Source: a virus
Strand: one strand, 5' to 3'
Length of the DNA: 26,524 nt
Virus record (IMG/VR): IMGVR_UViG_3300025305_000113
Span: 1 to 26,524 of that record
In this document: positions 10,332 to 26,524 of the stretch, piece after piece
How positions within the stretch are numbered: the stretch's first letter is position 1
Layout: each line of letters starts with the position of its first letter
Program-made: the position numbers and the translations under genes
The notes under the pieces: model-generated
Databases searched by the model: none
The model's input: the letters and a program-made list of their open reading frames with translations, nothing else
What the model was told of the DNA's origin: nothing

Positions 10332-12154
10332 TAGCTATTGTCCTCACAGTCATCAACATCCGGTTGAAAGTCTCGCAACTCGGTAACATTCTCTGCGGGC
10401 AGGTTGCAGATTTCGGGCGAGGTGGCGCTTCCATAAATATCATAATAAATCTCTTTAAATTTTTCTTGTGCACAATCAAAATCTATATCAACATAATATG
10501 AATTTTTATTGAAAGTATTTGCACACGCACAAGCTATTTTACCATTAGCATCTTTGTCTGTTAAGACATTAAAGAAATAATCAACAGCATCAGTGGTGAG
10601 TTCTGGTTGCTGTACTTCCTCGGGGGTTCCGGAAATCATGAGACCATCTACAATTTGCGGGTTCTCGTTCTTAAAATACTTGCGCTTAAGTTCCGTGCCG
10701 GTGGCGGTGTATCCGCCACTAAAGCCCGTGGGACTGATTCTGGCTGTTGCTGCGGTGGTGGTAATTGTTTGATTTGGGTTTCCTTGGGTCGTATTATTGT
10801 TAGTGAGAGTAATGTTAAAAGGATTATCAAAAGCATAGCCTATAATCTCCGAGATCTGGCTCTCATCTATACTGATTTTTAGATTGTGATTGCCGGTATA
10901 ACACCCGGCCGGATAAAGGTATTTGCATCTGCCTTTTAAAATATCACCTGTGTCATCTTTATCATGATCGGTCGGATACCCTCTGGTTGTAGAGCCATCA
11001 TCTTGGTTGAGCGCAGATAGAAAGTTGAGGACTGTCCCTTGTGTGTTAACACTTCCGCCGTCATATTCATAATTGCTAGATACAACGACTCCAATATTTC
11101 CTGCCGATGGCACTGAGAGTGGTTTAGAATTCGCTATAAATTCAAATGTCTGGCTTGTGATCCCATCGCTAATAGTCACTGTATCGCCGGCGGTGATGGC
11201 TGTGGCGGCAACCGCGATAATAGCTTCTGCTGCAGTTGTAACGCCGGTATCTAATGTCATTTCGAATATTTCAACATCGAAATTTTCTGTTAACAATTCG
11301 GTGTTTAATTCTTCTGCGTATACCATAACATCATCGCGAATCAGTTTAATTGTATTCCCTCCTTTAAAGGGCATAGTTTCGCTTACAAATTCAGACACCG
11401 CAGATGTGTCTAACATAGGAGCGGGGGCGCTTATTAGCTGTGTATAATATGCGGCGACATCAATTTGGGGAATATTGAACTCGGTGACTTCGTTATCGTA
11501 ACTAGCGGACGAAAAGTTGTACTTTGTCGTATCTTTTCTCTGAATATTGCTCATCTCACCTTGGCAAGTTATAAGCTTCCAAGCGGGGGACGCTTGCGTG
11601 TTGTCGCCTTCAAATCTGGCGTCACCGATAGCTGACTCAAAAGAAAGTATTTCTGGCTTTGGAACATATCTTTGTGGGGCAATATCTAAGTCGAACAAGG
11701 AAGGGCGGTAGATACCCGCGAGATCGGTGGTTGGATCTCCTTCAGCCAGGGCTATGATTTCTTCATCGGTCAGTGTCATTCCGTAGGCAAGTCGTCCCAT
11801 GTACATAAAGTCTTCATAAACCGTAGATCCACGCATGGCCGTGAGGGTTCCGCCGGTCGTGGTTGTGCCCGAAAAGCCGAGCATTTCCCCCCCTATAAAA
11901 GTACTCGGAGGGACCGAATTTTCGGCCTCTTCAAAAAGCAAGATGCCTTCTATAAATTGAGTTTCAGTTTTAATTCTTTCGTGAACTTTTGTTTGCACTT
12001 CTTTAAAGCCGCCGTATTCGCTATCATATAGCACGCCAGTATCAAAGAAGGCATAGTACTCCGGCTTCAGTTGACCAACCGAAAGCCGGTGCTTCCCATA
12101 CGGGGTCAATTGAAAATCTATAACTCTTTCTTTTTTATCTAAAAACTTAGCCAT
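10331..12154 (-). CDS. Virion structural protein with LTxxGKxxLSxG N-terminal module (607 aa)
   Basis: The start lies in a TAATG overlap with the 3135-aa gene; the ribosome site is a weak A/G run. Residues 13-44 (DFQLTPYGKHRLSVGQLKPE, then YYAFFDTGVLYD) match the N-terminus of the left-edge protein. Residues about 305-480 look like an inserted beta module: an Ala-rich helix (TTAAEAIIAVAATAI), then AGDTVTISDGITSQTFEF, then NITLTNNNTTQGNPNQTI, a style common in phage fibre and tail proteins. The C-terminus is Cys-rich (ACACA at 541-545, further Cys near 561, 583 and 603; also 410 and 418), suggesting metal binding or disulfides in a mature particle. It ends very acidic (DVDDCEDNS). Exact function unknown; a tail or baseplate role is inferred from context. 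Confidence 0.87.
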   Translation of the reverse strand: MAKFLDKKERVIDFQLTPYGKHRLSVGQLKPEYYAFFDTGVLYDSEYGGFKEVQTKVHERIKTETQFIEGILLFEEAENSVPPSTFIGGEMLGFSGTTTTGGTLTAMRGSTVYEDFMYMGRLAYGMTLTDEEIIALAEGDPTTDLAGIYRPSLFDLDIAPQRYVPKPEILSFESAIGDARFEGDNTQASPAWKLITCQGEMSNIQRKDTTKYNFSSASYDNEVTEFNIPQIDVAAYYTQLISAPAPMLDTSAVSEFVSETMPFKGGNTIKLIRDDVMVYAEELNTELLTENFDVEIFEMTLDTGVTTAAEAIIAVAATAITAGDTVTISDGITSQTFEFIANSKPLSVPSAGNIGVVVSSNYEYDGGSVNTQGTVLNFLSALNQDDGSTTRGYPTDHDKDDTGDILKGRCKYLYPAGCYTGNHNLKISIDESQISEIIGYAFDNPFNITLTNNNTTQGNPNQTITTTAATARISPTGFSGGYTATGTELKRKYFKNENPQIVDGLMISGTPEEVQQPELTTDAVDYFFNVLTDKDANGKIACACANTFNKNSYYVDIDFDCAQEKFKEIYYDIYGSATSPEICNLPAENVTELRDFQPDVDDCEDNS

Positions 12155-15100
12155 TATTTATCTTTTTTCAATAGAATGTCTACATCCATTTTAATTAGTT
12201 CTACGAAAGATAAGTAATCGTAGGGCCAATTAAAGCCAAATTTGTATTCTTTCAACTTGGTGTCTTTATGCTCAATCTGCCTTGTAGACTCATTCGCCTG
12301 ATCTGGGATTAAGTCGTAATAATCTGTTTGTGCTCTCTGTTTGACTTTAAAAACCATCCACCTTAAATTCTCGTTCATCAACACTCTTTCGTTAATCAGT
12401 TCGTTGTCAGCTAAATTGTGAGATATTGAAGAATTTTGAAATGTTAATTTATCACAATCTCTAGGAGATAGGTTCTGCCATATATATGACAAATCATCTC
12501 TGTCAAACTCATATTTGAATTCGAAGACATACATTGCGATAGGATCAACCTCTTTGTTATTCAAAAAGTCAAACTCTGGCGGGAACACATACTTTTCCAT
12601 TGATTGTCTCAGTCTTCTGAGTGATTCGCCGGCAGCACTTAAACTATCTCCTTCTGCTGAGCCCTCTGCTTCTTCTCTGGTTGCTCCGAAGCGCCTTTTC
12701 GGGATAGACACAAACCTCTTGCGCGTTTGTCTCAGCTTTGAGGTTCTGGGGATTTTGGACTTTTCGTGCTGTTCCACCGGATCAAGCATATAAGGTATTG
12801 CCACCACCGCTTCGTGAACCGCAAAGCTTTCTTTAATTTGTCCGAGTTTCGTGCTTGAATTTGTTTTGTCAAACCCACACAACGAAGATAACGAGCGAAT
12901 ATTTTTATAAAGATTCGCCCTCTTTTCCATAGAATCACCGCTGGTGCCGCCGGCGCCATTGTACGGTGTCAGGGCCACGGAGTTCACCAAATAATGACTA
13001 CGAAGCCACTCACCGGGAATATCGGTAATTTCTAAAAATATTCCCGTATTTAGATCATCCGGGATAACTCCGAATTGATGCCACATGCCCCGCGGGACAG
13101 AGGCTGAGCCATATGTTGGAAGTGTTAGAGTACCGCTAGCAGCAGTAATCCCGTGCACACCTTGGTCATTAAAATTAAGCATAGGCGTTTCCCACTTGGG
13201 CTGAATAATCCACTTGCTACCTACTGGTTTGTTTGTATTCTTGAGGACCCTTCCGAACTTATCTGTCTCTTGCTCTAAGACGCGCTGAGTTCCAAATAAT
13301 TTAACACTAGAGGTTAATTGCATCGAGTTGACATTAATTCTTTTTCCATCGTAAATCGATGGGACTGTCTGATCGTTGTCGGGGGTTACCCCTCCAAACC
13401 CGGCAAACTGAGTTTGTTCGACTGGGATTAGCACTGGCATCGAAGCTGTTAGCACTTTTGAACCCAGCTGCCTATTTTCGCCGGCGTCAAACCTCCAACA
13501 AACAACCTTCATTTCGTTTAGAATTCGGTTTAAACTATATACTTGAGTTGTTTTGCTGTCGGAATCTGTGATCTCTGGTCTAAAGATTAAATCGGCCCAT
13601 GCTTCACCATCATAATAAGGCGGTGTAAACGCTGGGTTGTAACCACTAAAACTATCTCGGGCAGCTTTATCGAAAGGGGCCGCTGCCGCATTTGAACCCG
13701 TTGGTCTTCCAGCGCATGACGGACCAAACGCAGTGGGGCGGCTGTACATTGTAAATGTTTCTTTGAACTTAGGATTGCGCATTGGATCTTGAGGTATCGG
13801 ATATTGGCCGGCGGAAGCAGTGCCAGCTACAGTCCGGATACCACCATTGACCCCATAGTAGCCGGCGCCCTTTGTCTGACCATATGAGTCGTATTCATGC
13901 TCATAGGTTCTGGCGCCGTTATGTGACTTTCGAAGTTTAACTCTCGCCATATAAAGCGGCCTATCGTCTTCAAAGTTACTATCTGGGGAAAACTGCAGGT
14001 CATCGAGGACCGTGTTAGATTCAAGTCGCGTTATTCCCGCTCCTTGAAGAAAGAACTCGCCGCATGCTCCAAAGAAATTACGAGCCATAAGTGTGTAAAC
14101 ACCATCTGCGTTATCTGAATAGGAGGCGGTAATACATTCCTTGTTGTACACAAGATCAGGCCCTTCGTCGTGGTTATTCCAGTTCCAATCTAGGCTCATC
14201 GAGGGATGGCTTTCCATGTCTATAAAGTCAGTATTGAGCACATATTTTTGTGGGTCGACAATTGCTTCGAACGGAATTCTCTTGTCCCAATATTGACCGC
14301 CCATATAAACTCCGGAACCATCGATATACATAGCCTGTGTGGCGTTTCCAGTAATAGAAAGGGCATAGTTGTGAGTAGATGCTGACAAATTTGTACCATA
14401 CGCTCTTCTCATACGCTTAGACGGGTTTGAAACAATGGGGTAATCAACTGCAATTCCCGATTTAATGGAATTATACAAAATTCCGGGAGAAATGAGGGGG
14501 TCAAGCAGGAATTTTAATATTCCGCCGGCGCGTAGGCTCAGATTGCCATTCTCGTTTGTGTATGTCGTGAGGCCCGTTTCGCTTCCCGAGTGACCCATTG
14601 TAAAGGATTTCCCAAACGAATCACCAAATTGAGCAGCAAGATCGACCGACCTTTGGGCCGGATAAAAGCCTTTATATGGATTATATTTGATTGCAGCATC
14701 ACAAGAGAGCTTAATCTCTTTTGCATTTAAAAGACTTTCCCTCTTAATTCCTAAGAAGTTTTCAAGGAAATCGGAATTAGAATAGTCTTTATAGAAATTT
14801 GTATCAGCACTAGAACTAGTGGTTCCCACAATTTCAAAGAAATTAGTCTTCGATTTGTTGTTAATGCCGTACTTGTAATAATCTTTAATGTGTTCGCTCA
14901 TTCTATATTCGGGAACAACAGCATATCCTTTCGCCAACAATCTATTATTTGCATCAAAAGCATCATAGCTGTCGTGCCAAGGATTCGAAGCGGTTGCCTG
15001 AAATACGGATGACGACCCGCTTTTGATTACTATTCCAGCCTGTGTTGGTGCTTCCCATGCGGCTTCGCCCGCAAAAACTTCAATCTGGTGTGCCGCGGCG

Positions 15101-18100
15101 AACGAACCAGTCCACGAACCGGTTTCAGCTATCTTAACGCCAGAAGGAGAAACTACCGAATTTGGTGAACTTAAGTCGTGCTTTCTCGCATAAAGCGGCG
15201 CCGGCGCCAACAAGGAAAATTTTCCTGATTCAGCCCAGAGAGTGAAATAAGCGAAATAAGTATTTTGTAGCGTGCCACCCTTTGGAATTGTAAGGTTGAA
15301 GGCTGCAGCGCCAGTTAGGGGTACAAAGGGAGTCCTATTTACATAATTTTCCGGGATAAGAACATTGAGGTCTGAGGCGCCTTTAGTGCCGCTAACAAAC
15401 GAGCGCGTCAAGAAGTTATTTGGCGCATCCAAAACCCAGCAGCTTTTACTGACTGGATACTTAAACATAGAGCTTGAAAGAGTGCCTCCTTTCGTATTTC
15501 TATCGGCCCTAGAATTACGCCAGAATTTATTATCATATCCAACGCGGCGGCTCGAAAAGGGGCCAAATTCGTTTTTTGTTGTGGGAAATATATTTTGTCG
15601 ATATAAGAGCCAATTTACAGTACTGTCAGTCTTACCTGTGCTGGTCGACCACATCCTCAGAATATCCCTATATGGCTCCTCGACATGATGTAAGTTTTTC
15701 TCAGCATAGTTGTTAAGTTCAAGCTCGTTGAAAAATAACCTTTCATTTGTGTTGGTAAACTTAAGAGTAACATTTTCATTTGTAATTTTTGGGCCGTTCG
15801 GGGTCAAAACATCAAAATTAATATATGAATTCCTACCTTTAAGAGACAGCGGCCGCAAGACATAAGTGCTTAAAGCCGAATCACTTCCTGTTGCTATCGT
15901 AAGCTGATTTAATTTTCTATCGTTCACGAGGATTTTATTATCATTTTGGTGGAACTTATTCCATCCCCAGCCGTATGTGGCGCCGCGAGAAGTCAATAAT
16001 TGATTTAGATAATTTGTGTTCGGGGCTGTGCCCACCAAATCTGTATTGGTGTAGTTGCTAACATTTACTGCCGCGGGAAAACCAATAGTGTTACTGCTCG
16101 CGCTAATGGGATCGACAATGATCACACTCAAATCGTGTGTCGGCTGTGCAAATGCTCCAATAGTTGCATTCGAACTACTAACAAACTCCCAATAGTATTC
16201 TAGGCCCGCGGAGGAAGTTCGGTAAAGATTGCGGCCGGGGCTGTTCGTCCTTTGGTAGCCTGCATATCTGATGTCTGAAACATTTAGCACCGATTTCGAC
16301 AACCATTGATATTGCCTATCTGATTGTGGAATCGGTCTTTGAATATTCAGGTTGTCGAATAGAGAACTTGTAGTAAATGTTGAATTATCTACATTGGTAG
16401 GCTTGATTAATTGTCTAGTATTTCTTTGCGTTTTGTGGAATGCCGGCAATTCATCAGCGGTTGCGCCGGGAGTAATTACAAAAACGGAATCTCGGCCGAA
16501 CCTGCCGGCATGCCGGGCGGTGTGTGAAACAAGGCCGTAGTCTTTGCCGTGGATGTCGCTTACTCTCATAGTAGAGGGAGTGCCACCATGAGCCTCGGAA
16601 ATGCTGCCTGTGGGACCCTGAGACGGCTTTAATACCGTGAGATTTCTGTAGGGTATAGAGTTGTATGGTGAGAATTCGGACGCTTTAAAATCTTGGTACC
16701 CTCTAGTTTGGACCTCGATGCCGCCGGGGGCAGAGAACTTAGTGACAATAATAGTATTATTGTTGGTGTTGTCCAAATAGGAGGTGTTGTAATCATCTAT
16801 GAACTGAGCGTGTAGTTGTTCACCGCGATGGATGTCTAGCAGGGTTCTAACATTTGTTGTGCTATTAACTTCGGTCGCTCTGGCCGGCAGAGTGGGTTGG
16901 TTGTCAATAAACGCCCGGGCATTGTTCTGCGCTCCGAAAGAGTGCACAACCTCGTATTGTTTGTCGTAGTTGCCCGGAACGGTTTTGTTGTTGCTCGTTC
17001 TGCTAATGTTCTTGATATTGACAGGTCTCTTCGCCACAAAGTCGCGATATAGATAAGCCTTTTCGTGATATGGATACGGATATGGAATAACTCCAGCAGG
17101 AGGATCGTATCCCGACGGCGGATAGTCTGCGCCGACGACGCCGATTGCGCCAGAAGGAATAAGGTCACACGATCCCAATAAAATTCTCCAAGCTTCGGGC
17201 CGATTGTTCTGCTGGTCGGTGCCGGTGTTCAAGTCAATATGTCGGGATTGATGACCTCCAACAACATCGTTAGTAAAGGGTCCCTGCATTGGTACCTCTA
17301 GTTGATCGCCGTAGACATCGTTGTGGACATTCGTGATCATCAAATTATCAGCTACTCTTGATATGACTTCCGCGTTGTACCCATTTCCAACCTCAACGCT
17401 AGCGCTGTAAACATTAAACGGGAATGCCATACCAGATTTGACATTCTTGTACCCAAGGCCAAGCTCCCAGTCGCGACCGGTTTGAACCTTGAATGTCTTT
17501 TTCTTTTTAACGATCATCTCACCGGGTTGGGTGGGATTTCTATAGACCGGAATCTGGGTTGATTCGCTGACAAAACCGACCATGACATTTAATGGCACAA
17601 AACCACCGCCATCATGGTTAATCGGACCAGCCGGCTTGACTATCGAGGCGGCAAAATCAAAGTTTTTGTTACTTTCAAAGTTAGTACCGCCTTTAATATT
17701 TCTAGTTAAAACCTTGTTGCTGTTGATTATTCTACCATTTTGGGCATCTTCCATGGCCATGGTGAAGTTGAACGGCCGGGTACCCGTTCTTTTACGAAAG
17801 TTAGAGGGCGTATAATTTGTGCCGTCGAGATTTGTTAAAGTTGGTGATGCGGCGGCCGCCGAATTGTGGGGTACTGAATATATTATATTCCTAAATGTAT
17901 TTCTTTGCGCATCGATATTAGCATCTCCAGAACTAATTTCGGCGGCGGCGCGATTGGCGCGGGAAGCCCAGAATTCTATGTTGGTTTGTGTATTACGCGA
18001 GGCATTATTCTCTGGGCTTGCTGAGTTCGCGTAAGAAAAGGCCATGGCTTCGGTTTCGGTGCTAGTGCCCTCCGGCAGTACTCTCTCTAAATCAAATTTA

Positions 18101-21100
18101 TTAGAGTCCAGGATATTGATCCTGTTTTGATATTTGTTTCTTTCAAGGACATGGCTTTCGACAACATTTTGAATATCGTTTACATATTCACTAGAAGCAG
18201 GAACTAGTTGAGAGATTATTGTCGTTATTGCGTCATCAAACCATTTATAGTATTCTGTATATTTTTCTACAGTTGTGACACTTGTTACTCTTCGGAAAAA
18301 CTGTTCTCTTAATTTTTCCATATCTTTATATCGATCGCGGTAATAATGAACTGGGTGACCCACAACATCATTAAAGTCTATGACTCCTGCGAAGAAGTCT
18401 AACATCTCCTCTGATATTGCATTATAAAGACTCTTCTCTATCGAGTAAACAAAGTTTGGAACTATCTCTTCTCTTCGTAAATTGGGCGTTAAATCATCAG
18501 TATCACTAAAAATCTGAACCATATCAGAAGATACGGGACGCTCTGGATCGACGAATTTATAGATATTAATGCTTTGTTTTTTGGCGGCTTTGGTTGAAGA
18601 AGCCGGGAAACCATAGCCGTATCCCGTATATTGATAACCAGAGATGCCACCCGTCCAGCCACTGGATGATATATCCGTGTGGGAACCCGAGCTAAAATCT
18701 TGTACCTTGAATCTCCCGGAAGAATCAGAGCCGGTTACATTCCTGAAATTCCAGTTGAAGGCCAGTGTATCATGGCCCAAGGTCTCCACATATTTATTTG
18801 TGCTATCTTGTAAATTGGCCAGCGGGCTTATTGGTTGAATAGAACCTGAGAGTCCAACATTTTCTAAGTCTAATGCATGCTGCTGCAGGTCAGTATCTTG
18901 TAAGTATTTTGTCCAGTATGCCACCGAAGAAACTAATACATCGCTCTTATAACTAACGGAGCCGGTCACATTTACTCTGTCAGCGCCGGCATATGCTCTC
19001 TTGGCAGACTCTATGAATCCTTTGCCGGCACGAGTTGTGACAGTGGCAGATTGTGTGAAAGAATTAAACAAGTCGGTCGTGATGGCATTGTAGCCAGAAA
19101 AGATGACCTCATATCTATGTTTGCGATTATTGGCAAGATCATCAATATTTCCACTGACGAATGTATCAAGTGGGTAATTTTGTGGTTTTACTCTGACCGA
19201 AAGGTTCCAACCATTGTTGTCGTAAACATCATTGTAGACTGTGCTCGTCAGCGTAACAGACTTCAATGTGGTTGGATCCCAATAAATAAGCTTAAAATGG
19301 CCGCCTTTTGATTGATTCTCGTCGCGAACAAAATATACCTTAAAATTACCATAATCAACATTAGCGGCCAATTTTGTAGTGTCTGTTCCTTGCGAAGATG
19401 TCGCGGCAGTACCGTCAACAGTGACTATTCCAAACAGGGAAATCTCATCATATTCGGAAGATTGTCTATTGTTTACATGTTGTGTTGGTTCATAATTCGG
19501 AAAAACGATATTTGATTCATATGTAAACCCATAACCATACTGCTTAACGCTGCCCGTTACTGAACCTAAAATGATGGCGCTGTCTACATCGGCATATGAA
19601 ACTTTCTTTTGGAAAACAACAGCATCGCTGTTCTGGTCAATTCCAAAGTTGGCACAATTTTTCTTAAGCAATTGTTGCTCAAGATTATTTTTTAAATTGA
19701 ATTCTGTGTTGTGAGAATTAATCCTAAGTGCCAACAAGTTATCATTAACATTAAAACATTTCAAGACATTTCTAATGGCCTGCTCTGTGCCTTTCGCTTT
19801 ATAAATTTCCGTTAAATTGTTGTAAAGGTTCTGATAAATCAGGTTCTTAGCCTCATACAAATCGTTCTCAAAAATGGTTTTATCAGAACGGTTCATGAAT
19901 TTTTCAAGCACCGTAGAGTCGATGAAAATTTCTGGAGAATAAAGTCCGAGGGATTGCGGCAGGTGCTCAGCAAAAGAAACCGGTTTGAAACTGCCGCTGG
20001 TATATGTCTGGTTTCTCAGTTTCGGTAAGTCTGTGATCTGGGAGTACAATTTATCAAAGTATGTACCCATTATATGCGTGATGTATTTTAAATCGGAATT
20101 CTCATTATCTGCATTCTCGTCAAGAATCCAGCTGGGAACTAAATTCATAAATGCCGAATTGTTGCTATAATCATAAGACGAGCCAGAAGTAAGCAATCTA
20201 TTCTGCAAACTAATATAGTCCGGATGATTTGTTCTGATAATCGGATCTAAGAATTCTTTGGTGGCGGCTGATGCTGAAACAATTGCGGAACCCGTGTTTC
20301 GAGCACCAGCAGTATATCCAGTCCAAACACCGTTTGTGACACGGCCGGCATAGTCTAATACAATACTATCTGTCGCTGTATCTGTCGTAATCCCTTCGTT
20401 GAATTTGTAGTACACGCCGAGGGTCGTGTTCGAAATATCACTATTGGAGCCTCCGCGTACTTGATCAAACCAGTTGTCTCCAATCTCTTTAGAGGTTCGT
20501 GCGCTCTTCCAAAATCTAAATTCGTCTAAAGAGCCAGATAATCTACCCCAGCCGGCCAGCGCGGAAGAGCCTGAAGGTGCAGTGACAAGCGCCCCAATTC
20601 GGCCGACAAGATTTTTTTCGTAAAGAGGGCCGAAGGTTGCGCCATAGCTGGCTGTTGCGTTTCTGTGGCCGTTAATATAAAGCGAAGCTGTGCCCGACGA
20701 GAGCACAACTGCATAGTGGCCCCAGCTTGAGAATTCACTTGGGCTAAAATTACCAAGCTGTACAGAATTCACGGCTGTAGAGCCCGAAGCAATGCTAATT
20801 CTAAAGGGTTTCTCGTTGGAACTGCTGCCAGTCACCTCTATCGTCATTCTTCCGTATTGTGCGCTAGATGAAAGCTCATTATTCCATAAGTCAAAAATAA
20901 CTTGTCTTTGCGAAGCATACGAGCCAGTTTTTAACCAAAATTCGACCGTCACCCCGTCATTAAAGTTAGATCTTAAATTAGATGTTCTAGTACCGGAGCC
21001 GTAATCTGATGGTAGTTTGGCGCTCGTGTAGATTGTTTCATCATATATATTAGAGTAGTTGTACTTATTGTCTGCAGGACTCGGCATTAAGTCTTTAAGA

Positions 21101-21561
21101 TCCGAAGTCGAAGCGGAGCCGGTTCCAGGGCCCCCAAACAGATCGATATACTCGTTACCGGCAGGCCTGGCGTAGTGATCTGCGAAACCAGACTCAGTGT
21201 AGCCCGCGCTATTCAAAGAAATGTAGCCCGTGCTGCGTGGATATTGATTTTCTAAAACATATCTTTCAACATCAAGACAGCCGTTCAAAAATTTGTTTAT
21301 TTCTGCTTCTGAGCCATCATAAGGATAAAAGTCAGTAATTCTGCTTAAAGCCGACTTATAATACAGGCGCGCTGAACCATACTTAGCGAAATTTTCAGGC
21401 TGAGAATAATCGAGTTGCGGGGTATACCGCTCTGCGTCGATCTTCTTTTGTATAACATTCTCCAACGACTCAGCGTCACCAGTAAAAAGATCTTTGGTGC
21501 TGGTCTTGGAAACAAATTCTTGAACTTTGTTACTTGATTCAAAAAGCTTCTTAATACTCAT
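12154..21561 (-). CDS. Giant baseplate/adsorption protein with LamG domain and tail-protein-I-like segment (3135 aa)
   Basis: One uninterrupted frame of 9408 bases, about a third of the window. The ATG at 21561 overlaps the upstream gene by 11 bases and has AGAG 9 bases before it. Residues about 200-370 form a LamG/concanavalin A-like lectin domain (VTVEFWLKTGS, WGHYAVVLSSGTASLYING, SLDEFRFWKSARTSKEI), a glycan-binding jelly-roll fold. Residues about 440-615 resemble P2 tail protein I and similar baseplate proteins: LVPSWILDEN, YFDKLYSQITDLPKLRN and LTEIYKAKGTEQAIRNVLK, where the KGT/Ala-Ile-Arg motif is characteristic. Its place after the gp25- and gp6-like genes agrees with the P2 order W-J-I. 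The remaining 2500 residues are beta-rich and Ser/Asn/Thr/Gly/Tyr-rich with no family I can name; there is a short acidic Ala/Ser/Glu linker near residue 2970 before a charged C-terminal domain (YVFEFKYEFDRDDLSYIWQN). Probably a baseplate-wedge or host-adsorption component. Confidence 0.9.
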   Translation of the reverse strand: MSIKKLFESSNKVQEFVSKTSTKDLFTGDAESLENVIQKKIDAERYTPQLDYSQPENFAKYGSARLYYKSALSRITDFYPYDGSEAEINKFLNGCLDVERYVLENQYPRSTGYISLNSAGYTESGFADHYARPAGNEYIDLFGGPGTGSASTSDLKDLMPSPADNKYNYSNIYDETIYTSAKLPSDYGSGTRTSNLRSNFNDGVTVEFWLKTGSYASQRQVIFDLWNNELSSSAQYGRMTIEVTGSSSNEKPFRISIASGSTAVNSVQLGNFSPSEFSSWGHYAVVLSSGTASLYINGHRNATASYGATFGPLYEKNLVGRIGALVTAPSGSSALAGWGRLSGSLDEFRFWKSARTSKEIGDNWFDQVRGGSNSDISNTTLGVYYKFNEGITTDTATDSIVLDYAGRVTNGVWTGYTAGARNTGSAIVSASAATKEFLDPIIRTNHPDYISLQNRLLTSGSSYDYSNNSAFMNLVPSWILDENADNENSDLKYITHIMGTYFDKLYSQITDLPKLRNQTYTSGSFKPVSFAEHLPQSLGLYSPEIFIDSTVLEKFMNRSDKTIFENDLYEAKNLIYQNLYNNLTEIYKAKGTEQAIRNVLKCFNVNDNLLALRINSHNTEFNLKNNLEQQLLKKNCANFGIDQNSDAVVFQKKVSYADVDSAIILGSVTGSVKQYGYGFTYESNIVFPNYEPTQHVNNRQSSEYDEISLFGIVTVDGTAATSSQGTDTTKLAANVDYGNFKVYFVRDENQSKGGHFKLIYWDPTTLKSVTLTSTVYNDVYDNNGWNLSVRVKPQNYPLDTFVSGNIDDLANNRKHRYEVIFSGYNAITTDLFNSFTQSATVTTRAGKGFIESAKRAYAGADRVNVTGSVSYKSDVLVSSVAYWTKYLQDTDLQQHALDLENVGLSGSIQPISPLANLQDSTNKYVETLGHDTLAFNWNFRNVTGSDSSGRFKVQDFSSGSHTDISSSGWTGGISGYQYTGYGYGFPASSTKAAKKQSINIYKFVDPERPVSSDMVQIFSDTDDLTPNLRREEIVPNFVYSIEKSLYNAISEEMLDFFAGVIDFNDVVGHPVHYYRDRYKDMEKLREQFFRRVTSVTTVEKYTEYYKWFDDAITTIISQLVPASSEYVNDIQNVVESHVLERNKYQNRINILDSNKFDLERVLPEGTSTETEAMAFSYANSASPENNASRNTQTNIEFWASRANRAAAEISSGDANIDAQRNTFRNIIYSVPHNSAAAASPTLTNLDGTNYTPSNFRKRTGTRPFNFTMAMEDAQNGRIINSNKVLTRNIKGGTNFESNKNFDFAASIVKPAGPINHDGGGFVPLNVMVGFVSESTQIPVYRNPTQPGEMIVKKKKTFKVQTGRDWELGLGYKNVKSGMAFPFNVYSASVEVGNGYNAEVISRVADNLMITNVHNDVYGDQLEVPMQGPFTNDVVGGHQSRHIDLNTGTDQQNNRPEAWRILLGSCDLIPSGAIGVVGADYPPSGYDPPAGVIPYPYPYHEKAYLYRDFVAKRPVNIKNISRTSNNKTVPGNYDKQYEVVHSFGAQNNARAFIDNQPTLPARATEVNSTTNVRTLLDIHRGEQLHAQFIDDYNTSYLDNTNNNTIIVTKFSAPGGIEVQTRGYQDFKASEFSPYNSIPYRNLTVLKPSQGPTGSISEAHGGTPSTMRVSDIHGKDYGLVSHTARHAGRFGRDSVFVITPGATADELPAFHKTQRNTRQLIKPTNVDNSTFTTSSLFDNLNIQRPIPQSDRQYQWLSKSVLNVSDIRYAGYQRTNSPGRNLYRTSSAGLEYYWEFVSSSNATIGAFAQPTHDLSVIIVDPISASSNTIGFPAAVNVSNYTNTDLVGTAPNTNYLNQLLTSRGATYGWGWNKFHQNDNKILVNDRKLNQLTIATGSDSALSTYVLRPLSLKGRNSYINFDVLTPNGPKITNENVTLKFTNTNERLFFNELELNNYAEKNLHHVEEPYRDILRMWSTSTGKTDSTVNWLLYRQNIFPTTKNEFGPFSSRRVGYDNKFWRNSRADRNTKGGTLSSSMFKYPVSKSCWVLDAPNNFLTRSFVSGTKGASDLNVLIPENYVNRTPFVPLTGAAAFNLTIPKGGTLQNTYFAYFTLWAESGKFSLLAPAPLYARKHDLSSPNSVVSPSGVKIAETGSWTGSFAAAHQIEVFAGEAAWEAPTQAGIVIKSGSSSVFQATASNPWHDSYDAFDANNRLLAKGYAVVPEYRMSEHIKDYYKYGINNKSKTNFFEIVGTTSSSADTNFYKDYSNSDFLENFLGIKRESLLNAKEIKLSCDAAIKYNPYKGFYPAQRSVDLAAQFGDSFGKSFTMGHSGSETGLTTYTNENGNLSLRAGGILKFLLDPLISPGILYNSIKSGIAVDYPIVSNPSKRMRRAYGTNLSASTHNYALSITGNATQAMYIDGSGVYMGGQYWDKRIPFEAIVDPQKYVLNTDFIDMESHPSMSLDWNWNNHDEGPDLVYNKECITASYSDNADGVYTLMARNFFGACGEFFLQGAGITRLESNTVLDDLQFSPDSNFEDDRPLYMARVKLRKSHNGARTYEHEYDSYGQTKGAGYYGVNGGIRTVAGTASAGQYPIPQDPMRNPKFKETFTMYSRPTAFGPSCAGRPTGSNAAAAPFDKAARDSFSGYNPAFTPPYYDGEAWADLIFRPEITDSDSKTTQVYSLNRILNEMKVVCWRFDAGENRQLGSKVLTASMPVLIPVEQTQFAGFGGVTPDNDQTVPSIYDGKRINVNSMQLTSSVKLFGTQRVLEQETDKFGRVLKNTNKPVGSKWIIQPKWETPMLNFNDQGVHGITAASGTLTLPTYGSASVPRGMWHQFGVIPDDLNTGIFLEITDIPGEWLRSHYLVNSVALTPYNGAGGTSGDSMEKRANLYKNIRSLSSLCGFDKTNSSTKLGQIKESFAVHEAVVAIPYMLDPVEQHEKSKIPRTSKLRQTRKRFVSIPKRRFGATREEAEGSAEGDSLSAAGESLRRLRQSMEKYVFPPEFDFLNNKEVDPIAMYVFEFKYEFDRDDLSYIWQNLSPRDCDKLTFQNSSISHNLADNELINERVLMNENLRWMVFKVKQRAQTDYYDLIPDQANESTRQIEHKDTKLKEYKFGFNWPYDYLSFVELIKMDVDILLKKDK

Positions 21562-25306: not shown

Positions 25307-26524
25307 TTATCGTTTATCCAATATATCTGGGCCGTCACACAATTCGCCGTCTGCATTGTATGGATTCTGCTTGAGCCTCCTTCTTTGCCACCATGGCAAC
25401 ATACCTGCGCCGGGTGTGGGGAATACTCTAGCTTTAAGATTTCTGAGCTTAATATGGACAGGACTTTTCTCCCTGCTTTTCTGGCCCGGTTTTTGGTCAG
25501 CAGCATAATAGTGTGTCCTAAATAATTTTTTAATTCTTGCTCTAGAGTTTCTTAGCAGTACCCGATCCCATTCATCCCAATTCAATGTAAATGGGGTAGC
25601 CCATGGGCGGTCTTTGGGGTGTTCCCAACCTTCGTTGCCGGTAAGGGCACTGCCGTGTACATCAAAGACGGTGGCATCGAATTCAAGATCGTCATCCCAA
25701 AAATCAGGAAGACCGTAGATTTCTTTGTTCGAGTCGGTGGCCTCAATTGTTGTTTTCTCGTTCTGGGTTTTAATGAAAACTCGGGACCCGGGCTTCATTC
25801 GAACGACCTTAAATGGAGAGCTATTCATCCAGTCTGACTTTGTATTGGTGTTTGCTTTCTTGCCGAAGAACCAATCGCCGGTGTCCGGTCTCGATGTTGT
25901 TGCAAGCCATCGGTGGCCGTCCTTCTTGCCGGGGGTAACCTCTCCGACGGAGGCCAAGAAACCCATATCATTATAAATTGCCAATGTAGAGGTTATCTTT
26001 TTCATTGAGAATACATAACTCATAAGTAATTTATATTTTGGATCGTGTTTTAAGTGTTGTAACAAACAATGTAATAGTTTGCTATTAGCTTGGACTGGTT
26101 GGAATTGTGAGGTTTTGAAGTCTAGCGCGTCGACCTCAACAGATGTAATAAGCGTGCCCTTATAATAAAATGCCAGGCCATGCCGAACGCCGATGTTGCC
26201 TTCAATACCAACATCTACTCCGTCGTCATTAGTAATTAATTTTAAAGTACCGGGCCATATATCTGATATTCTTACCTCGGGGTTTTCGGCGCTAATTTGA
26301 GCTTTTGCATCAGTTGTTGATTTCTTGACACCATCGATAGAAATATATTTTTCAAGTTTAAAGGGGGTCGAATCGGAGTAGCTACCAGCACCAAAGGCAT
26401 AGTCGGGTACATCGCCGATCGGAACGGTTATTTCTTCAGTTTCAACAAAATTGACAAGGCTCGTATTGCCATCGGGATATCTCGTTACGGTTGTTCCCGT
26501 TGTGGCCACTTGCAAGATATCTGC
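25307..26524 (-). CDS. C-terminal part of a large unidentified structural protein, 5' end cut by window edge
   Basis: The frame is open to the right edge: in-frame codons GCA GAT ATC precede the first possible initiator, a TTG at 26513-26515, so the true start most likely lies outside and at least 405 residues are visible. The visible N-terminal part is beta-rich (GNIGVRHGLAFYYKGTLITS). An amphipathic helical stretch follows (LLHCLLQHLKHDPKYKLLMS, then YVFSMKKITSTLAIYND), then a domain with WPLDD-like acidic and aromatic residues (DFWDDDLEF). The last 80 residues are very basic (NSRARIKKLF, KPGQKSREKSPVHIK, WWQRRRLKQ). I recognise no family. Directly upstream of gp25/W one often finds the hub, spike or tape-related genes, so a baseplate or tail role is inferred, but there is no motif evidence for spike or lysozyme activity. 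Confidence 0.8.
   Translation of the reverse strand, partial: ADILQVATTGTTVTRYPDGNTSLVNFVETEEITVPIGDVPDYAFGAGSYSDSTPFKLEKYISIDGVKKSTTDAKAQISAENPEVRISDIWPGTLKLITNDDGVDVGIEGNIGVRHGLAFYYKGTLITSVEVDALDFKTSQFQPVQANSKLLHCLLQHLKHDPKYKLLMSYVFSMKKITSTLAIYNDMGFLASVGEVTPGKKDGHRWLATTSRPDTGDWFFGKKANTNTKSDWMNSSPFKVVRMKPGSRVFIKTQNEKTTIEATDSNKEIYGLPDFWDDDLEFDATVFDVHGSALTGNEGWEHPKDRPWATPFTLNWDEWDRVLLRNSRARIKKLFRTHYYAADQKPGQKSREKSPVHIKLRNLKARVFPTPGAGMLPWWQRRRLKQNPYNADGELCDGPDILDKR

Follow-up and report, generated by a model that had tools for sequence, protein, structure and literature searches.

What kind of protein is encoded by a single open reading frame of 3135 codons lying just beyond baseplate genes in a virus genome, and why should it combine a lectin-like domain with a segment resembling the small tail protein gpI of phage P2? 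The frame (P0001) occupies positions 12154-21561, on the minus strand like its parts and the genes P0003 to P0006 considered below, of a 26.5-kb virus record, the whole of which (26,524 nucleotides) is here termed the window. It begins with ATG and is intact throughout, as the original prediction had it. Its N-terminal region (residues 1-191; 20989-21561) has a conserved MSIKKLF start, from which the frame is open in 49 relatives, full or partial, at 39-75% identity and with many reaching the C terminus; that conservation makes the frame more than a chance occurrence. An IMG/VR search found 50 relatives of the giant, and with a profile built on residues 1-1152 at least 555 IMG/VR stretches were seen to encode relatives. 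The giant protein is real, intact and widespread. None of its relatives was found in bacterial and archaeal genome contigs, and cultured phages searched at both DNA and protein level with either the giant or the form from locus L051 gave no match; the profile alone reached relatives in cultured phages. A PHROGs scan of the giant gave no match and a Pfam scan gave nothing beyond Laminin_G_3. Family members have to date been annotated only as 'hypothetical' or 'uncharacterized', and neither giant nor stand-alone forms (see below) are described in the literature consulted on LamG with baseplate and on Far-T4 genomes.

The interpretation favored here, and a probable one, is that the giant serves an uncultured Far-T4 myophage as its baseplate wedge subunit of the gp7/gpI type, bearing LamG domains and a fused extension. 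The lectin-like part is the more readily recognized. Laminin_G_3 matches residues 192-360 (LamG1; 20482-20988) with E=2.1e-16 and 60.8 bits against a curated Pfam cut-off of 27.6, bearing out the claim of an N-terminal LamG domain ahead of the I-like segment.

The I-like segment itself is a helical gpI/gp7-type core, residues ~447-613 (19723-20223), discerned from profile comparisons and predicted structure. The KGTEQAIRN motif within it, earlier placed near residues 589-597, is present, one residue further on at 590-598 (19768-19794). Its K-G-T is invariant across 44 aligned relatives, and the G and T are retained in 122/122 of a deeper set. When those 122 were scanned one by one against Pfam, Tail_P2_I matched the core in 44 at E<=1 (best 7.8e-4), the next best family matched in 8, and Gp7_helical matched the core in 7 (best 0.0021), counts that are not independent since the members are related. 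The window protein gave no Pfam match to Tail_P2_I (PF09684). Across 12 long contigs (146-340 kb) there were four Tail_P2_I matches, all within the putative wedge-protein gene, and one of these, in a stand-alone relative, exceeds the curated cut-off.

A gpI profile was also built from P2 and 16 other phages and compared with 250-residue tiles of the family. It matched only where residues ~545-660 were included, the other tiles giving E values of 0.2-0.7, and with a deeper family alignment E dropped from 0.0035 to 2.8e-4. The T4 gp7 core profile matched the module core at E=0.0022, the alignment running collinearly through 114 columns and bringing the two KG motifs into register (T4 DFYSTKGIEASYKFLFKVLY above EIYKAKGTEQAIRNVLKCFN). 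As a yardstick of known relatives in the same set-up, gpI against gp7 gave E=0.0076, while the gpI profile found pyocin PA0619 at 1.3e-50. Pairwise hhalign probabilities for the core matches are 13-41% and no single profile match is overwhelming; PDB sequence profiles compared with the core, the second sandwich described below and the extension yielded nothing relevant. Several profiles of moderate strength nevertheless fall on the same stretch, so the relationship of the I-like segment to gpI/gp7 is upheld: at the level of sequence the core is demonstrably homologous to P2 gpI, with the helical core of T4 gp7 as the better match of the two. No support was found for equating the conserved helical block further along with the C-terminal helix of gpI (PAS motif), hhalign showing no alignment with the gpI C terminus.

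AlphaFold2 modeling of residues 430-668 from 122 sequences gave an almost all-helical prediction (pLDDT 75). In a Foldseek comparison with PDB the predicted core had no match at E<1, and second in rank, weakly (E=1.5), was 7kh1_A2, a 173-residue chain of the XM1 baseplate. That chain is most likely XM1 gp17, the gp7 ortholog, because gp17 was modeled for residues 1-79 and 107-200, which amounts to the same 173 residues.

The setting of the gene has its own story to tell. Upstream of it are a gp25/gpW gene (P0003; 24895-25263; E=9.5e-12) and a gp6/gpJ gene (P0004; 23086-24879; PHROG baseplate wedge, E=2.5e-22), the latter matching T4 gp6 at E=1.5e-4 over 363 columns. The expectation that the giant follows W- and J-like genes therefore stands, with a conserved 511-aa gene without recognized function (P0005; 21551-23086) lying between J and the giant. 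A P0005-like gene similarly separates gp6 from the wedge protein in giant loci, stand-alone loci and cultured Far-T4 phages, and the 80 loci with the stand-alone form keep both gp6 and P0005 neighbors. Directly downstream of the giant is P0006 (10331-12154), whose N-terminal ~50 residues serve as the marker of where the wedge segment stops, in giants and stand-alone loci alike. At the other edge of the window, 25307-26524 encodes a C-terminal fragment (P0002) of a protein whose relatives are ~1850-2090 aa; its family has 99 matches in giant loci and was not found in stand-alone loci.

The 26.5-kb window has no gp23 gene, and the Far-T4 placement is drawn from the long contigs of relatives, where T4-type Gp23 (E about 1e-60) was found in 11 of 12 and a tail sheath likewise in 11 of 12. 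Sheath-family matches in these contigs (G001-G012) occur in long ORFs of ~970-1060 aa, G010 having three of them and G005 two. For the Gp23 of one giant-bearing contig, an uncultured phage record came closest; the nearest cultured relatives are those of Flavobacterium phage immuto, Microcystis phage Mel-JY01 and Rhodothermus phage RM378, of which RM378 is the cultured Far-T4 representative (PMC4360716, PMC7198788). With the core profile, no module match was found in RM378, while a 1265-aa ORF emerged in immuto and a 1337-aa ORF in Mel-JY01, neither having a Laminin_G_3 match. In immuto the genes for baseplate assembly and baseplate wedge proteins are followed, in that order, by a P0005-like gene, a short one and immuto_161 (QQO92079.1), currently annotated as a hypothetical protein, which aligns with the core (7e-16) and, 55 residues later, with the helical block (1e-6), there being no LamG2 between; the Mel-JY01 ORF matches the second sandwich region. 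Immuto, whose laboratory host is Flavobacterium sp. LMO8, encodes LamG elsewhere, in three more ORFs of 221, 259 and 460 aa (MW353176.1:139848-142372). Since immuto_161 has core then helical block without LamG, these two constitute the conserved unit, and LamG is an accessory part.

What of the remainder, earlier regarded as about 2500 residues without a nameable family? Part of it resolves. Between the core and the helical block is LamG2, a LamG-like second beta-sandwich (residues ~627-1003; 18553-19683) recognized from predicted structure, Foldseek and the Mel-JY01 match; Pfam by sequence found nothing there, and tandem LG structures align across LamG1 plus LamG2 in Foldseek. Family comparison then reveals the conserved helical block, EYYKWFDD...LERNKY (residues ~1040-1146; 18124-18444), where the stand-alone form ends, and beyond it the C-terminal extension (residues 1147-3135; 12157-18123) peculiar to giants. 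For these last 1989 residues the earlier description still holds, as in the window protein they have no Pfam or PDB match. Within the extension, residues 1367-1419 and 1618-1677 (17305-17463 and 16531-16710 of the window) give a weak hint of duplication, which is not claimed as such, the hhalign E of 0.016 being the best among several hundred comparisons. The giants of L011 and L028 have variable basic, glycine-rich C-terminal tails of up to 130 residues past the conserved end.

Complete relatives fall in two size classes, giants of ~2820-4130 aa and stand-alone proteins of ~1110-1290 aa, the latter close in size to T4 gp7 and stopping at about residue 1140 in window-protein numbering; the extension joins where they end. 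In an unrooted FastTree phylogeny of the shared part, giants and stand-alone proteins split cleanly (support 1.0), so that one fusion or one split explains the size pattern. The P0006-type gene, directly 3' of giants, is 3-7 kb further down in nine stand-alone loci, usually preceded there by two genes, of 250-340 aa and 780-1390 aa. As the same interval before that gene is filled in both arrangements, the giant extension takes the place of these two downstream genes, and, to judge from position, may be their equivalent. Downstream of the stand-alone form in L051 (L051:14796-17846) is a 1016-aa collagen-like protein with G-P-T/G-D-T repeats.

LamG content varies among the giants. LamG1 is common to the 54 complete ones, 26 of which add one or two LamG domains more. 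Six sites receive such additions: positions 308, 659, 1488, 1696, 1719-1729 and 2185, the insert at 308 falling inside LamG1. Of 19 extensions, Pfam confirmed Laminin_G_3 in 9, with 3.1e-20 as the best E. In L102 and L047, LamG1 is split by inserts of ~520 and ~110 residues that are not LamG according to the family model.

The core homology, the LamG ahead of it, the helical block after it, the position behind gp25 and gp6, the gain and loss of LamG domains and the junction of the extension can be read from sequence; how such a protein might work is more conjectural. The core would pair with two copies of the gp6-like P0004 product in a (gp6)2-gp7 wedge, as in XM1 and T4, that would keep the baseplate poised and would open upon contraction. 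LamG1 and LamG2 would hang on opposite sides of the core, and the C-terminal extension would project at the rim of the baseplate, the place of the gp17-held tail spikes in XM1, and would serve additional lectin domains in contact with the host surface as their scaffold. The LamG domains would there bind glycans, with shuffling of extra copies at the six sites tuning the target, and fusion would have made wedge and arm one chain in place of three gene products. Tentatively, and with the odds against so full a scheme, every wedge may thus bear a covalent multi-lectin receptor-binding arm that arose by a single fusion of a gp7-type protein with its downstream adhesin genes, underwent later LamG hopping and couples host recognition directly to a subunit with a part in triggering the opening of the baseplate.

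Could the giant instead be a large tail fiber or adhesin, its gpI/gp7 likeness convergent or fortuitous? Great size and LamG domains are typical of adhesins and the core matches are individually weak, but whether the locus is giant, stand-alone or cultured, the gene comes after gp25 and gp6, the gpI match is tile-specific, that to T4 gp7 is collinear, and the 12 long contigs offer no Tail_P2_I match outside the wedge gene; a fiber is improbable. With a wedge protein accepted, its LamG domains might yet be structural, serving subunit packing or baseplate stability and binding no host glycan. The presence of LamG1 in every giant, with conservation about equal to that of the wedge core and of the rest of the protein, fits a structural role as well as binding, and the Foldseek matches of the LamG part, to pentraxins and laminin LG domains, point to the general LamG/pentraxin fold and not to a sugar-binding subset. 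The gain and loss of extra copies at six sites is, however, expected of modules in contact with hosts and less so of packing parts, making the purely structural alternative less likely than not.

Whether the extension descends from the two downstream genes is finely poised. Neither hmmsearch --max nor hhalign detected homology between it and these genes of ~300 and ~780-1390 aa, as expected had it been acquired elsewhere and simply replaced them; against this are the matching interval from module to P0006-type gene and an hhalign hint, the best at a non-significant E=0.11, that is collinear with direct fusion. Replacement from elsewhere is accordingly given not far short of an even chance. The two clean sides of the unrooted tree would equally suit a giant ancestor whose splitting yielded the stand-alone form, but the proteins of T4 (gp7, 1032 aa), immuto (1265 aa) and Mel-JY01 (1337 aa) are all of the short kind, making such a split quite unlikely.

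If the giant is indeed a wedge subunit with lectin domains, a large uncharacterized protein family of uncultured phages gains a likely function, and the Far-T4 group's equivalent of gp7 is identified, with immuto and Mel-JY01 as cultured carriers. The gain and loss of LamG domains by a core structural protein also bear on changes of binding in abundant aquatic phages.

How do known systems compare? PMC10457771 regards T4 gp7, XM1 gp17 and pyocin PA0619 as counterparts. P2 gpI and Tail_P2_I, R2 pyocin Tri2 (PA0619) and XM1 gp17 share with the giant the core around KGT and a place after W and J genes; unlike it, P2 gpI, Tri2 and XM1 gp17 are of 176-242 aa and lack lectin domains, and the C-terminal part of gpI has no recognized counterpart in the giant. 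Loop 80-106 and the C terminus of XM1 gp17 hold the tail spikes, the same kind of place as that where giants bear their extension. The immuto_161 and Mel-JY01 proteins have the giant's core, helical block and operon position without its extension, and immuto also lacks the second sandwich. LamG domains are known in general from jumbo-phage virion proteins (PMC7824862); LamG1 and the inserted copies resemble other Laminin_G_3/pentraxin-type domains in their significant Pfam matches and differ in being placed within a putative baseplate wedge protein. T4 gp7 is a nearer comparison than the small P2 gpI: its gene likewise follows gp6, and its I-like helical core likewise sits in a long chain with further domains on both sides. 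The I-like segment is, as first proposed, embedded in a chain of more than 3000 residues, yet with T4 gp7 already holding such a core in a long multidomain chain, embedding in itself is not new. T4 gp7 shows an fn3-like match at its N terminus along with Gp7_5th/6th domains and has neither LamG nor the ~2000-residue extension of the giant, and it is the lectin decoration, the domain shuffling, the giant fusion and the annotation of the family that are new.
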